From Candidatus Peregrinibacteria bacterium (GTDB lineage Bacteria; Patescibacteriota; Gracilibacteria; UBA1369; LOWO2-01-FULL-3): a stretch of DNA of 64,000 bases. Each line of letters starts with the position of its first letter. The stretch's first letter is position 1. The DNA lies in NCBI GenBank assembly GCA_030592015.1, contig JAUUZY010000003.1, positions 1 through 64,000 of the forward strand. Reading direction: 5' to 3'. This document shows, in pieces, positions 7,521 through 62,918 of this stretch. The notes beneath the pieces are model-generated. The model made no database searches, was not told where the DNA came from, and saw only the letters and a list, made by a program, of their open reading frames with translations. A program made the translations under genes and the position numbers.

Positions 7521-8266
7521 ATTTATTAAAAACAGCTTTAGTCAGTGCACTCGTAGTGGTTGCGCTGACTTCTTGCACTTCAGAACTTCCGGCGAAGGGG
7601 GCAATAATTCCACATCACCTTTTAGTGGAAGAGCAGATGGAGGAGTTATACACAGAAATTGCCAGCGAGGACATCGAGAAAGTGATTTTGATAAGTCCAA
7701 ATCATTTCAATTATGGCTTCAACTATATCCAGACAACGGATGAAGATTTAGAGAATGCGGAAGTTGAGCCAAAGTATTTTGAAGAAGAACACGGAATCAG
7801 CGTTCATGAGGATTTCATCTCTCGCCATTTTCCAAATGCAAAAATAGTCCCAATAATTATAAAAAATGACACTCCACAAAATCGCATAGATGATCTTTTA
7901 GAAGAACTCACCGCGCAAAATCTGGACAAAACAGTAGTGATAGCTAGCATAGACTTCACTCATTACGAATTGGAAGAAATAGCAGTGGAAAACGATGAAC
8001 GCACAATGCAATGGCTTAGAGACTGGAGTCAACACGAATCGGAAGATTCCTTCAATGAAATAAAAAATCTGGCAATCAACGTAGGCGAAAGCAGCCCGGA
8101 CGCAGTCGCAATGGATTCTCCGGAAAGTTTTTACATGCTCACCAGGATCATGGAAGCACAGAACGCAAAAGACCTAACGATCGTACAACGAACATCATCT
8201 GCTTCAATCACAGGCATAAAAGACCCCAGTCAAAACACCAGCCACCTCTTCGTAAAATTCCGCTAA
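7484..8266 (+). CDS. MEMO1-family protein (AmmeMemoRadiSam system B) with lipoprotein signal
   Basis: LVVVALTSC lipobox; [49 protein letters not shown]. Confidence 0.8.
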
Positions 8267-10026
8267 ACGTTATCCATAACAGCCCCAGTATTCGCACTGG
8301 TAACATGTTGTGCATAACGACCTAGCCAACCTCTCTTCACCTTGAGTTCATGCTCAGGTAGCTCTTCCAGGCGCCGAGCAATTTCTTCATCAGTCAAGTC
8401 TACATTGATAGTTCGCCCAATTGCATCAATCTTGATCTTGTCTCCATCCTGCAGAATAGCAAACGGCCCTCCAGCCGCAGCTTCCGGCGAAATATGGCCT
8501 ATACAAAGCCCTCTGGTTCCTCCAGAAAATCTACCATCAGTAATCAATGCGGCCTTCACACCCCGCCCTTTTATAGCGGCCGTGGGAGCCAACATCTCCT
8601 GCATTCCCGGTCCCCCCTTTGGTCCTTCATATTTCAAAACAACCACGTCGCCATCCACAACCTTCCCTTCCAAAATTCCACTGAGCGCCTCTTCCTGCGA
8701 TCCAAAAACCTTCGCCACTCCTTCAAATTGCATCATATCTTCCTCCACACCAGCAGTCTTTACCACACTACCCATCGGCGCAATATTCCCATACAAAATC
8801 GCCAACCCCCCAACCTCAGAAAACGCATCATCTCCAACTCTCACCACGTCACCATCAGCATCGGGCGACGCCTCAACATATTCCTTCAAACTCCCAACAC
8901 AAGTCGGCAAATCGATATTTAACGGTGCCTCACTGTGCTCATACACAGCCTTCAAAATCGCACCAATTCCACCCACTCGATGCACATCCTCTATATGAAC
9001 ATCAGGCCTCGAAGGAGAAACTTTGCAAATATTCGGAGTTACGTCAGATAATTCATTCACTCTCTCTAGCGGATACTTTATCCCTGCCTCCTGCGCCAAA
9101 GCTAAAGTGTGCAAAACAGTATTCGTCGATCCTCCCATCGCCAAATCCAAAATAAAAGCATTATCAATCGATTCTTTTGTCACGATATCCCGCGGCAAAA
9201 TCTTTTTATCCATCATTCGTTCAATCACATCCGCAGCCTTTTCCACAAACTTCACACGATCCGGATTTATTTCCCATTCCATATTTTCCTCATCAGTCCA
9301 AACCGCCGCCGGAATAGTTCCATTCCCCGGCATCGCCAATCCCACAGCTTCCGCCAGACAGTTCATAGAGTTCGCGGTAAACATACCCGCACAGCTTCCA
9401 CAAGTCCCACAAGCAGTACCAGCCAAATCCTCCAAATCGCCATCACTCATGCCACCCGCCGCATTTTTCCCAACCCCCTCAAAAACCGTCACCAAATCTG
9501 TGCCTCCCTTCCCAGCAAGCATCGGCCCGCCACTCAAATAAAGAGAAGGGATATTCAGCCGAACCATCGCATTTAGCATGCCCGGCACAATCTTGTCACA
9601 ATTCCCAATCCCAATCCACGCATCGCAAGGATGCGCTCCAATCATAGTTTCAATCTGATCAGTAATCAGCTCACGCGACGGCAGAGAATATTTCATCCCA
9701 AAATGCCCCATCGCAATCCCATCATCCACAGCCCCACCAATATTCGCATACCAGACATTATATCCCTTTTTCTTCAGCACGCTCACAACCCTCTTTCCCA
9801 ATTTATCCAAATGAGCATGCCCAGGAATCTGAGTCGTAAAAGAATTCACAACCGTCACAAAAGGCTTGCTCCTATCAGAAATTTCGTCAATTACTCCAGC
9901 CGCCTTCATCAAAGAAGCCGCCGGCAACATATGCATCCCTTCAGCCACAATCCGACTACCCCTCTTCTGCACATTAGCTATACCTGGATTTATCGCTTCG
10001 TTATTTGTCATAGGGGCATCATACAA
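8263..10026 (-). CDS. ilvD: Dihydroxy-acid dehydratase
   Basis: [73 protein letters not shown]. Start may be internal Met at 10011. Confidence 0.97.
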
Positions 10027-58038: not shown

Positions 58039-58089
58039 ATGCACAAGTTCGCCACAATAATTTCAATTGTAGTCATTATTATCTTCTAA
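58039..58089 (+). CDS. Candidate attenuator leader peptide MHKFATIISIVVIIIF*
   Basis: 16 codons, 6 Ile and 2 Val, ends in GTA GTC ATT ATT ATC TTC TAA immediately before hairpins; missed by the ORF track because of size. Confidence 0.75.
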   Translation: MHKFATIISIVVIIIF

Positions 58090-58093
58090 TTCT

Positions 58094-58122
58094 GGAGAGG
58101 AACTTGTATGTAAAATCCTCTC
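58094..58122 (+). promoter_or_regulatory. Candidate antiterminator hairpin
   Basis: GAGAGGA (58095-58101) pairs with TCCTCTC (58116-58122), overlapping the terminator 5' arm. Confidence 0.7.
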
Positions 58123-58144
58123 TGGCAACAGGAGGTTTTTTTTT
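58117..58144 (+). terminator. Candidate intrinsic terminator (attenuator)
   Basis: CCTC-T-CTG GCAA CAGGAGG stem with one bulged T and GCAA tetraloop followed by nine T. Confidence 0.82.
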
Positions 58145-58166: not shown

Positions 58167-60014
58167 ATGCTTACAACAAACGGAAAATTCTACATTCTCA
58201 AGTGTACAAAATGTAATACGGAATTCGATGAAAAGAAAACTTGTACTACATGCCTAAAATGTGGGCATCCGTTAGACGTGATTTATGATTACAAATACAT
58301 CAAGCAGCGCCTCAATCTATATGCACTGAAGAATTCGCCAATATCAGCATTGAAATATCTTCTCCTATACCCGATCATAAATTTGGAGAAAATAATCAGC
58401 CTAAACGAGGGTGGAACACCACTTCACCATTGCGGAAATTTATCAGAAGAATACAAAATCAAAAATCTATACGTAAAAAACGAGGGAGCAAACCCAACCG
58501 GGGTATTCAAAGATAGAGGAACATTGGTAGAAATAACAAAAGCACTGGAAATGGGAGCAAAAGCAGTCTGTGTAGCCTCCACCGGAAACATGGCAGCATC
58601 CGTTTCAGCATATTGTTCAATCGCAAAAATCCCATGCTATGTACTCGTACCTGAAGGAACACCTATCGGAAAACTCGCACAGACACTTTCATACGGAGCA
58701 AGAATAATCCAAGTACGTGGAACATATTCCGAATGCGCAAAGCTAGCAGTAGAAGTATCAAAAAAACACGGGTTCTACCTAGCGGGAGACTATGTATTCC
58801 GACTGGAAGGACAAAAATCTCAAGCCTACGAAATAGCCGAGCAATTGGGATGGAAAGCCCCTGACTACCTCCTCTGTCCAATAGGGTGCGGAACGAATCT
58901 CGCCGCAATATGGAAAGGATTCGTAGAATTGAAAAAACTCGAACTAATAGAAAAATTACCAAAACTAATAGGGGTACAACCTGAAGGATGTAACGTAATC
59001 ACAAAAGCTTTCAAAGAAAAGAAACACACTTTCAAACCAATAGAAAAACCAAACACAATCTGTAGCGCAGTAGCCGCAGGAAATCCATTAGACGGATCAA
59101 AAGTACTCAAAGCCCTCTACGAATCAAAGGGAACAGTTTGCGAACTGACAGATGAAGAAGTTCTCGAGGCGGAACAAACTCTGGCAAAACAAGAAGCAAT
59201 ATTTGTAGAACCATCAGGAGCACTACCAATAGCGGCAGTTGCCAAAATGTCACAAAAAGGATTCTTCAAAAAAGACGACATAGTGGTTTGCATCGCAACA
59301 GGTAATGGATTGAAAGACCCCAAGTCAGCGGTAAAAATCCTCCCTGACCCACCAACAATAGATCCGCAAATGTCCGAAGTAGACAATTACCTGAAATATA
59401 AACTCTACCAAATCCAGGCGGAAGGAATGAAAAATAAGACCAAAGTTTTATGGGAAAGAATTCCGACACTCGAAAAATTAAAGAAAATCATTCACAACGA
59501 ATTTGGAATCAAAATCAACAAAGTGATCCTAAAAAAAGCTCTCGAGAGCATCAAAGAATTCGAAAACAAAGGAAAAACTCTCACAAAACAGGATCTCCAA
59601 AACATCATCGAAGAACAAATCGATGAATACAACATAAAAGAAAAATACCTGGAAATAATCGACTTCGAAACAAAAACATCGAAGTACAAAGAAGCCGAAG
59701 CCAGTCTGAAAATAAAGTACGGAGACAAAATTCTCCTCGCACAGGCAAAAGGTGTAGGTACGGTAGATGCGATAATCAAAGCCCTAAAAAAGAGCATCAA
59801 GCCGCACGACAAACTTCACATCAAGCTGACAGACTACAACGTGGAAATATTTACAGGTGGAGTAGACGCATCAGTGAAAGTAACAATGAAGGCGAGAGAC
59901 AAGAAAGGAAACAAAATTATTTCCCACGCTACATCACCGGATGTGATCGTGGCCTCAGTGAACGCATTTGAGAAATGCTATAACTTCCTTTACCATAAGA
60001 ATCACTCTAACTAA
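58167..60014 (+). CDS. Threonine-synthase-like PLP enzyme with N-terminal Zn ribbon and C-terminal LeuA-type allosteric domain
   Basis: CTKCNTEF...CLKCGHPL; NEGGTPLHH, NEGANPTGVFKDRGT, ASTGNMAASVSAYC; C-term AEASLKIKYGDKILLAQAKGVGTVDAIIKALKKSI...LTDYNVEIFTGGVDASVKVTMKARDKKGNKIISHATSPDVIVASVNAFEKCYNFL. ORF start 58104 lies within the attenuator, so ATG 58167 preferred. Confidence 0.85.
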   Translation: MLTTNGKFYILKCTKCNTEFDEKKTCTTCLKCGHPLDVIYDYKYIKQRLNLYALKNSPISALKYLLLYPIINLEKIISLNEGGTPLHHCGNLSEEYKIKNLYVKNEGANPTGVFKDRGTLVEITKALEMGAKAVCVASTGNMAASVSAYCSIAKIPCYVLVPEGTPIGKLAQTLSYGARIIQVRGTYSECAKLAVEVSKKHGFYLAGDYVFRLEGQKSQAYEIAEQLGWKAPDYLLCPIGCGTNLAAIWKGFVELKKLELIEKLPKLIGVQPEGCNVITKAFKEKKHTFKPIEKPNTICSAVAAGNPLDGSKVLKALYESKGTVCELTDEEVLEAEQTLAKQEAIFVEPSGALPIAAVAKMSQKGFFKKDDIVVCIATGNGLKDPKSAVKILPDPPTIDPQMSEVDNYLKYKLYQIQAEGMKNKTKVLWERIPTLEKLKKIIHNEFGIKINKVILKKALESIKEFENKGKTLTKQDLQNIIEEQIDEYNIKEKYLEIIDFETKTSKYKEAEASLKIKYGDKILLAQAKGVGTVDAIIKALKKSIKPHDKLHIKLTDYNVEIFTGGVDASVKVTMKARDKKGNKIISHATSPDVIVASVNAFEKCYNFLYHKNHSN

Positions 60015-60020
60015 ACAAAA

Positions 60021-60944
60021 ATGGCAAAAACATTTCCCTACGCATACATTAGAAAAAAGACATGCAAAACTGAAAAAGCAGTAATACCGATTCAATCAAA
60101 AGTTGTTCAATACGGCCTGGGATTCTTCTCGGGGATACGTGGGTACTGGAATGGTGATAACAAAAATATATACCTATTCAGAATGGAGGATCATTTCAAT
60201 CGAATGCAGGAATCCGCAAAAATAATGCACATGAGATTCCCTCTCAGCTATCCAAAATTCAAAAAAATCGTAATCGACCTCATCAAAAAGAACAAAGCAA
60301 AGGGAGACATATACATCAGACCAACCGTCTATGCAGCCTCCACAGAATTAACTCCACGACTCAATAATCCGGACGACGATCTTGCAATATACATGATCTC
60401 TCTAAAAGATTATTTCAAATCAAACACAGGGGTGAAGGTTTGTATTTCCAGTTGGAGACGAGTGGAAGACGATGCAATTTCCATGAAAGCAAAAGTGACA
60501 GGCGCATACGCAAACTCCGCACTCGCAAAAACTGAAGCCCTGCTAAATGGTTATGATGAGCCAATATTCCTAAATCGCGACGGTTCAGTCTGCGAAGCAA
60601 GTGGTGCAAACATTTTCGGAATAAAAGATGGACAGGTATATACACCACCTCTATCCGCAAACAATTTAAACGGAATCACACGACGCAGCATCATCGAATT
60701 ATTCGAAAAAGAATTGAATATGAAAGTCCGCGAAGAAAATTTTGATCGCTCAACTCTATACACATTCGACGAATTGTTTTTCACAGGAACGGCAGCAAAA
60801 GTCGCATGGATCGCATCTGTCGACCAGAGGAAAATCGGAAAAGGAACAATGGGGAAATACACAAAAAAGGTAAAAAGAATTTTCGACGAGATCACAGAGA
60901 TGAAGCATGACAAATATTCACAATGGCTAACCCCAGTATATTGA
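60021..60944 (+). CDS. ilvE: Branched-chain amino acid aminotransferase (class IV)
   Basis: VQYGLGFFSGIRGYW, AKVTGAYANSALAKTEALLNGYDEPIFLNRDGSVCEASGANIFGIKDG, ITRRSIIELF, DELFFTGTAAKVAWIASVDQRKIG. Confidence 0.93.
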   Translation: MAKTFPYAYIRKKTCKTEKAVIPIQSKVVQYGLGFFSGIRGYWNGDNKNIYLFRMEDHFNRMQESAKIMHMRFPLSYPKFKKIVIDLIKKNKAKGDIYIRPTVYAASTELTPRLNNPDDDLAIYMISLKDYFKSNTGVKVCISSWRRVEDDAISMKAKVTGAYANSALAKTEALLNGYDEPIFLNRDGSVCEASGANIFGIKDGQVYTPPLSANNLNGITRRSIIELFEKELNMKVREENFDRSTLYTFDELFFTGTAAKVAWIASVDQRKIGKGTMGKYTKKVKRIFDEITEMKHDKYSQWLTPVY

Positions 60945-62680
60945 ACGAAGAAAATCTAAAACTCGGAGCAGAAATATTTTGTGACTCACTGGCAAGTGAG
61001 GGCGTAGACATAATATTCGGAATCCCTGGAGGAGTGCTCTTGCCGCTATACGACAAAATAAACACACACGGAAAGAAGATCCGCCATATACTTCCCAGGC
61101 ACGAACAGGGAGGAGGATTCGCAGCAGACGGCTATGCCCGAGTTACAGGGAATGTAGGAATCTCGATCGGAACATCAGGTCCGGGAGCTACAAACCTTCT
61201 CACAGCGATGGCAAATTCTATGATGGATTCAGTACCAACCATCTACGTTACAGGACAGGTCATGGAAGACATGATGGGAACAGATGCTTTTCAGGAAACA
61301 GATGTAGTGGGAATGAGCATGGCAATTGTAAAACACAGCTATTTCGTAACTCACGCAAAGGACATAGCGAGAGTAATGAAGGAGGCTTTCCACATAGCGA
61401 ACACAGGTCGGCCTGGACCAGTACATATAGATTTTTCAAAAGACGCATGGCTGACCAAGGCCACAGGAGAAATTCCGGAAGAAATAAATCTACCGGGCTA
61501 CACAGCAATTCCTGAAACTTCAGCAGATTCAGAAATTCAAAAACTGGAAGGCCTACTGGAAAAAGATGGAGTGAAACCACTAATAATCGCAGGACACGGT
61601 ATAGAAATTTCTAGAGCACAAAAGGAATTATTAGAGTTTGCAGAAAAACACAACATCCCAGTGGCAAACACGCTACTGGGGCTGGGAAACTTCCCTCAGG
61701 GACACCCGCTATGGGTGGGAATGATAGGAATGCATGGTGACGCAGTCGCAAACGTTACAGCGGACAGTGCAAACCTAATAATAGGTGCTGGAATGCGTTT
61801 CGATGACAGAATCACAGGTGAGCTAAACGACTTCATAGATGGAGTTACATTCGTTCACATAGAAATAGACAACTCAGAAATAAACAAAAACGTTCCAATA
61901 GAACTCCCTCTACTTGGGGATGCAAAGGACGTTCTCTCCCGAGCAAACAACTTACTTTCAGATCACAACTACACGGACTGGCTGGAGCAAATAAAAAAAT
62001 GGAAAGAAGAATACGGATTCCTGGATTTCAAATTCAATCCAATAAACGACGAGAAATTTTTGAGTCAGCCACGAATTATAAAAATGATTTCAGACATAAC
62101 AGAGGGGGAGGCGATAGTTGCAGGTGACGTAGGAAGAAATCAAATGTGGCTTGGAAGATTCTATAGATTCAAACATGCGAACTCTCATCTGTCATCAGGA
62201 GGCCTTGGCTCTATGGGCTATGGCTTGCCGGCAGCAATGGGCGCAAAGCTTGGAGCACCGGATCGTGAAGTATGGACTACAACAGGAGATGGAGGCTTCA
62301 TGATGAACGTTCAGGAATTGGGAACTCTGGCTGAACACAACATTCCTGTAAAAATTGCGATCATGGAAGACTCAAGTCTCGGAATGGTTCGACAATGGCA
62401 GAATTTACTTTTCAAAGGAAATCTCTCACACTCAGAGTTCAAAAATCCGGACTTCGTTGCACTCGCAAATTCATTCGGAATACCTGCATGGAGAGCGACT
62501 ACTTATGAAGAAGCGGAACACGCAATTCATGAAGCTCGTAAAGTAGACGGACCTACTCTGATCACATTCATGGTAGACCCGGATGAGCACATTTTTCCAA
62601 TGGTCCCACCAAACACACCGCTCAGGGATCAGGCACTTAGAAACGAAGACTTAACAGGAAAAGATCATGGAACAATATAA
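60923..62680 (+). CDS. ilvB: Acetolactate synthase, large (catalytic) subunit
   Basis: GIPGGVLLPLYDKI, RHEQGGGFAADGYARVTG, TSGPGATNLLTAMANSMMDSVPTIYVTGQV, GDGGFMMNVQELGTLAEHNIPVKIAIM. Confidence 0.96.
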   Translation: MANPSILNEENLKLGAEIFCDSLASEGVDIIFGIPGGVLLPLYDKINTHGKKIRHILPRHEQGGGFAADGYARVTGNVGISIGTSGPGATNLLTAMANSMMDSVPTIYVTGQVMEDMMGTDAFQETDVVGMSMAIVKHSYFVTHAKDIARVMKEAFHIANTGRPGPVHIDFSKDAWLTKATGEIPEEINLPGYTAIPETSADSEIQKLEGLLEKDGVKPLIIAGHGIEISRAQKELLEFAEKHNIPVANTLLGLGNFPQGHPLWVGMIGMHGDAVANVTADSANLIIGAGMRFDDRITGELNDFIDGVTFVHIEIDNSEINKNVPIELPLLGDAKDVLSRANNLLSDHNYTDWLEQIKKWKEEYGFLDFKFNPINDEKFLSQPRIIKMISDITEGEAIVAGDVGRNQMWLGRFYRFKHANSHLSSGGLGSMGYGLPAAMGAKLGAPDREVWTTTGDGGFMMNVQELGTLAEHNIPVKIAIMEDSSLGMVRQWQNLLFKGNLSHSEFKNPDFVALANSFGIPAWRATTYEEAEHAIHEARKVDGPTLITFMVDPDEHIFPMVPPNTPLRDQALRNEDLTGKDHGTI

Positions 62681-62918
62681 TTACGAACTCAAGACAACAG
62701 TAGAAAACCAACCGGGTGTGCTAGCACGCATGACAATCATGCTGCGCAAATTCAACATAAATATTAAGTCCATGGAGATCGTAGAACCGGAAGGCGACAA
62801 AAGCATCTACGAAATCCACATGGTAATAGAAAGTCCCAAAGAAGACGTCTCCGTCGTACTGAAAAAACTGGAACGACTTGTTCCAGTCATCTTAGTTGAA
62901 TACAAAAGAATCGATTAA
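62667..62918 (+). CDS. ilvN: Acetolactate synthase small subunit, short ACT-only form
   Basis: YELKTTVENQPGVLARMTIMLRKFNINIKSMEIVEPEGDKSIYEIHMVIE; 83 aa; overlaps ilvB. Confidence 0.88.
   Translation: MEQYNYELKTTVENQPGVLARMTIMLRKFNINIKSMEIVEPEGDKSIYEIHMVIESPKEDVSVVLKKLERLVPVILVEYKRID

Follow-up and report, generated by a model that had tools for sequence, protein, structure and literature searches.

A threonine synthase-lineage enzyme fused to a LeuA-type linker and regulatory domain is a probable threonine deaminase of Peregrinibacteria

Class I threonine synthases (ThrC), such as those of T. thermophilus (1uim/1v7c), A. aeolicus (2zsj) and M. tuberculosis (2d1f), are PALP-fold enzymes with an NPTG.FKDRG motif, and archaeal-type members of the class carry a Zn ribbon. 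The T. thermophilus and B. subtilis enzymes are reported to have a threonine deaminase side activity, and the ThrC of Microcystis to be bifunctional, with a deaminase activity that is inhibited by isoleucine (PMC12172450). The biosynthetic threonine deaminase IlvA (TIGR01124, TIGR01127) belongs to another sequence family and carries the sensing C-terminal domain Thr_dehydrat_C. RidA acts on the enamines from IlvA and threonine/serine dehydratases (PMC9127364). In LeuA/CimA proteins, the regulatory domain PF08502 sits on an HMGL-like TIM barrel, and the linker helices of isopropylmalate synthase (IPMS) carry the inhibitory signal (PMC10464499). Here we describe a gene in which a ThrC-lineage enzyme is fused to the LeuA linker and regulatory domain, a combination of which we found no earlier description in the literature (open-licence papers). 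The encoded protein is very probably a threonine deaminase that fills the role of IlvA, built from a class I threonine synthase and a LeuA/CimA-type linker and sensor, in an operon with a putative attenuator.

The gene lies in a stretch of 64,000 nucleotides that was analysed as a whole (the window), and its features are collected in Table 1. An earlier reading of the letters alone (the sequence-only reading) had proposed a threonine-synthase ancestry, an N-terminal Zn ribbon and a C-terminal LeuA/CimA-type domain, and the analysis agreed with all three. Searching Pfam with hmmscan placed PALP at residues 77-379 and LeuA_dimer at residues 472-608 (E 1.6e-24), with scores well outside the range of chance, and two NCBIfam threonine synthase models were exceeded, PRK08197 with 312.5 bits (cut-off 303) and TIGR00260 with 245.6 bits (cut-off 167.1). 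With its PLP lysine and its fold, the fusion belongs to the class I threonine synthase sequence family, and its Zn ribbon is that of the archaeal-type members. In contrast, it falls outside the IlvA family, scoring 103.5 bits against TIGR01127 (cut-off 378.75) and 59.1 bits against TIGR01124 (cut-off 411.3). Its Pfam matches include LeuA_dimer instead of the ACT-like Thr_dehydrat_C domain. Unlike in LeuA/CimA, the PF08502 domain is borne by a PLP enzyme of fold type II; the fusion has the PALP domain and no HMGL-like TIM barrel.

Table 1. Features of the fusion gene, its leader and related genes. Coordinates refer to the window unless a locus is given.
Feature	Coordinates	Strand	Remarks
Leader peptide ORF, MHKFATIISIVVIIIF then stop	58039..58089	+	16 codons, 6 Ile and 2 Val; similar leaders in relatives
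Putative antiterminator arm, CTGGAGAGGAACTTGTATG...	58092..58111	+	pairs with leader start or terminator 5' arm
Intrinsic terminator in leader, CCTCTCTGgcaaCAGGAGG + T9	58117..58144	+	directly before fusion gene
Fusion gene, ThrC-lineage PLP enzyme with LeuA linker/regulatory domain	58167..60014	+	615 aa; proposed Ile-regulated threonine deaminase
Zn ribbon, N-terminal (C13, C16, C29, C32)	58203..58262	+	cysteines near-invariant across 28 fusions
PALP catalytic domain	58395..59303	+	PF00291, E 2.3e-75; threonine synthases as top solved structures (37-40% identity)
PLP lysine K115	58509-58511	+	within motif NPTGVFKDRG
Helical linker homologous to LeuA linker (subdomain II)	59454..59636	+	hhalign, fusion against LeuA alignments
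LeuA_dimer (PF08502) region	59580..59990	+	86.7 bits, gathering cut-off 24.9
ilvE, branched-chain aminotransferase	60021..60944	+	exceeds cut-offs of TIGR01122 and PRK06606
ilvB, acetolactate synthase large subunit	60923..62680	+	TIGR00118, 649 bits
ilvN, acetolactate synthase small regulatory subunit	62667..62918	+	after ilvB; similar to the small gene that follows ilvB in operons of relatives
ilvD, dihydroxyacid dehydratase, away from operon	8263..10026	-	PF00920, E 9.6e-105 at 8893-9867
P-loop kinase-like protein of relatives	L054:3026-3697; L055:8839-9507; L056:4376-5047	+; -; +	shikimate-kinase match E 0.002, weak, under cut-off

The LeuA-derived part extends beyond the sensor itself. When 28 fusions were compared with LeuA proteins from related genomes by hhalign, residues 430-611 of the fusion aligned with LeuA 326-497 (98.5% probability, E 2.5e-15), indicating that the regulatory domain was acquired together with the LeuA linker helices. 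The predicted structure, for which we used the prediction from 40 sequences after setting aside a poor one from 6 sequences (pLDDT 47), has three helices at residues 435-485, in the linker. Residues 411-610 also aligned with the NCBIfam 2-isopropylmalate synthase models, under their whole-protein cut-offs. No second LeuA_dimer protein was found in this genome besides the fusion.

The fusion of a ThrC-lineage enzyme with a LeuA domain is real. A survey for the same fusion in other genomes, as the sequence-only reading had suggested, covered 353 genomes class-wide and a 380-genome sample of the phylum and returned about 36 copies. They occur in many families of Peregrinibacteria/Gracilibacteria and in other Patescibacteria, with three of the genomes outside the class; the named relatives of the fusion's genome are Candidatus Peregrinibacteria/Peribacteria. 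In its own family, 8 of 30 genomes are carriers. Copies from related genomes are about 75% identical to it, those from distant genomes 45-63%. Chance or an assembly artefact was ruled out by this recurrence across genomes. The carrier set used below (n=40) consists of 36 fused and 4 unfused copies, the fusions of G010, G029 and G157 being among those cut by contig ends. In a quick tree, the fusions and their close unfused relatives formed one clade (SH-aLRT 98) separate from canonical ThrC. A peptide-pattern scan of GTDB, whose reach is limited, matched nothing beyond close relatives and archaeal ThrC without the fusion, and fusions may also exist in other phyla. The same lineage occurs without the LeuA domain in family f14 (G298-G301; L157-L160), where ridA adjoins the unfused copy in two cases and the copy of G299 is split over two frames.

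We aligned the fusions with reference threonine synthases, namely PDB 1uim, 2zsj and 2d1f, archaeal ThrC, a Lysinibacillus ThrC encoded beside thrB and an Acinetobacter ThrC encoded beside homoserine dehydrogenase. The canonical enzymes have NS[VI]NP.R, GNT, SFKDRGM and GN.GN. Where the site is covered, the fusions instead have AGDY..FR, with one residue fewer (CGDY in place of AGDY in G624), GNM, mostly VFKDRG[TS], and G.GT[NH], usually GCGTN. The split between the two groups is sharp. The NPTGxFKDRG motif that the sequence-only reading had taken as typical of threonine synthase is present around the PLP lysine, but its setting is VFKDRGT here and SFKDRGM in true threonine synthases. In T. 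thermophilus ThrC, T88, N154, S155, R160 and N188 are presumably the contacts of the substrate phosphate (substrate-analogue complex 1v7c). R160 (T. thermophilus numbering) is kept in the fusions. Genomes G168-G171 hold both kinds of protein, an unfused ThrC with NS[VI]NP and GNT and a fusion without them. As judged from the alignment, the fusions lack residues conserved around what we take to be the O-phosphohomoserine phosphate site of threonine synthases.

These replacements bear on what the protein does. Family-level models call it a threonine synthase, its best solved structures are threonine synthases, and the sequence-only reading accordingly proposed that threonine synthesis is under branched-chain feedback. 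Homoserine dehydrogenase is indeed encoded in about half of the carriers (19/40). However, it was not found in the fusion's own genome (G000, about 90% complete), which leaves no known source of O-phosphohomoserine, nor in 20 other carriers (21/40 in all, many given as 95-100% complete), although single gene absences are weak evidence in metagenome assemblies. Organisms that lack this enzyme would need imported threonine. Where a fusion genome encodes a second ThrC, that protein retains the residues replaced in the fusions, the g11 relatives have a separate E. coli-type (class II) ThrC in a thrA-kinase-thrC operon, and thrA or a thr-operon kinase adjoins the fusion-lineage gene in none of the 40 loci. 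A genuine threonine synthase under branched-chain feedback is highly improbable on this evidence. We set it aside for the missing homoserine dehydrogenase here and in the other carriers and for the replaced residues. Class II ThrC was likewise not found in G000. The idea of branched-chain end-product control in the sequence-only reading is retained, but most likely the control would act on the breakdown of threonine to 2-oxobutyrate, the first isoleucine step, rather than on threonine synthesis.

No canonical IlvA was found in G000. Among the 40 carriers, nothing scored above 116 bits with the IlvA model (cut-off 379), and the best matches were the fusion itself. The only other PALP protein of G000 is a divergent one of 346 aa (L053:5331-6368, -, contig C72) with an NPTGTHKDR motif and 74 bits to PF00291; G006 has a similar one (L032).

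The neighbourhood of the gene is that of isoleucine synthesis. As the sequence-only reading had noted, it stands in an ilv operon, with ilvE, ilvB and ilvN downstream, in a context of ilv and ridA instead of the hom and thrB of class I ThrC. IlvC and RidA are encoded elsewhere in G000. The ilvD gene lies about 48 kb from the operon and scores 349 bits, compared with about 450 for the operon-borne ilvD of the g11/g14 relatives; the lower score suggests that it may be of another lineage. In 30 of 40 loci, the fusion-lineage gene is accompanied by ilv genes and/or ridA, in many cases as immediate neighbours and in differing surroundings, counts that do not represent 40 independent events because related genomes share ancestry. 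Within the family, IlvD is present in 7/8 fusion genomes versus 0/22 others (p = 4e-6) and RidA in 8/8 versus 5/22 (p = 2e-4). Homoserine dehydrogenase and class II ThrC showed no significant link with the fusion (p = 0.06 and 0.28). Since RidA handles the enamines that dehydratases release, its company points to a dehydratase. Together with the operon and the lack of another detectable IlvA, this is the genomic place expected of an IlvA-like function. The same company would suit any enamine-producing lyase (PMC9127364), and promiscuity is common among PLP enzymes of fold type II; the substrate might be serine, homoserine or a homoserine derivative, feeding 2-oxobutyrate or pyruvate. The Ile/Val codons of the leader described below and the ilv operon indicate a supply of 2-oxobutyrate, and half of the carriers apparently make no homoserine, which makes such a lyase extremely improbable.

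A moonlighting ThrC has been reported in Microcystis (PMC12172450), and the fusion might likewise combine threonine synthase and threonine deaminase. The double function may hold in the 19 of 40 carriers with homoserine dehydrogenase, some of which, such as G015, show no other ThrC. We nevertheless regard it as very unlikely. The conserved residues are replaced, many carriers lack homoserine dehydrogenase, and G015 lost the thrC-adjacent kinase along with thrC; compared with its close relative G014, the thr operon of G015 has lost both genes while the fusion has been kept. The kinase in question is a P-loop kinase-like protein of 224 aa, whose gene three relatives have between thrA and the class II thrC, and which was lost with thrC in G015. 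From its sequence it is a candidate non-orthologous homoserine kinase.

We infer that the fusion is a threonine deaminase from the replaced residues, the missing homoserine dehydrogenase, the lack of a canonical IlvA, the ilv/ridA company and the Ile/Val-rich leader. The deaminase side activities of threonine synthases and the Microcystis enzyme are a good precedent for the change of reaction. Like the fusion in its proposed role, Microcystis ThrC is a threonine synthase relative that acts as an isoleucine-inhibited deaminase; unlike it, Microcystis ThrC keeps its threonine synthase activity, and the text consulted mentions no LeuA domain (PMC12172450). With IlvA the fusion would share the reaction, the place in the ilv operon, the RidA partner and a sensing C-terminal part, though one of LeuA type. 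In the proposed course of events, a class I threonine synthase ancestor acquired a LeuA/CimA-type linker and regulatory domain, and its PLP domain retained the Schiff-base lysine and lost residues conserved around the phosphate of O-phosphohomoserine. The enzyme would dehydrate threonine to 2-aminocrotonate, which would give 2-oxobutyrate with the help of RidA, and IlvBN, IlvC, IlvD and IlvE would then convert 2-oxobutyrate to isoleucine.

The LeuA domain would most likely bind isoleucine, valine or leucine being less likely ligands, and the linker helices would pass the inhibition on to the enzyme. Among solved structures, the sensor part came closest in sequence to 3f6g (E 0.0025), a weak hint. 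We take 3f6g to be the regulatory domain of citramalate synthase from Leptospira with isoleucine bound. Whatever the reaction, the domain could instead be a dimerisation module without a ligand, a separate question from those above, and the unfused f14 relatives do manage without it. That is unlikely, however, given the resemblance to 3f6g and the G.G..DA motif and SPD segment, which are invariant over 28 divergent fusions. Taken more broadly, it is fairly likely that Patescibacteria derived a dedicated lineage of threonine deaminases from threonine synthase, which replaces IlvA and borrowed the whole LeuA linker-plus-sensor module for feedback, the sensor now controlling an unrelated PLP fold. 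Databases that call the fusion "threonine synthase" probably misname it. If the threonine deaminase reading is true, a widespread gene named threonine synthase by family models is the entry step of isoleucine synthesis, and metabolic models of these reduced bacteria would wrongly assign threonine production to them. It would also be a clear natural case of an enzyme that switched from making to consuming threonine and gained a new allosteric sensor, and the LeuA regulatory module would be movable between unrelated enzyme folds, which would be useful in protein engineering.

The region upstream of the fusion points to a second level of control. The Ile/Val density of the leader peptide MHKFATIISIVVIIIF was reached by none of 200 dinucleotide shuffles, and the predicted folds were -13.0 kcal/mol for the antiterminator and -9.9 kcal/mol for the terminator. 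In sequence and predicted folding, the region thus has the arrangement of ribosome-mediated ilv attenuation: a residue-rich leader, a terminator and a mutually exclusive antiterminator. Ribosome stalling at the Ile/Val codons of the leader would block formation of the terminator. An Ile-rich leader and a terminator also precede the fusion in G014, G015, G019, G020, G292 and G312, as they do in G000. In G177 they stand before a solitary fusion with no ilv gene near, and in G293 and G294 before ilvE-first operons that contain the fusion. G029 has the leader peptide, with no hairpin flagged by the automatic terminator test, and G013 has no such Ile-rich leader. No known riboswitch or T-box was found before the fusion in the window, where the Rfam matches were tRNAs only, and the putative attenuator at 58039-58144 of the window matches no Rfam family. 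Elsewhere, in G174 (L113:2565-2732, -), the fusion is preceded by a T-box-like leader with a GGTGGTACCG core, which scored 30.3 bits, under the gathering score of 93.
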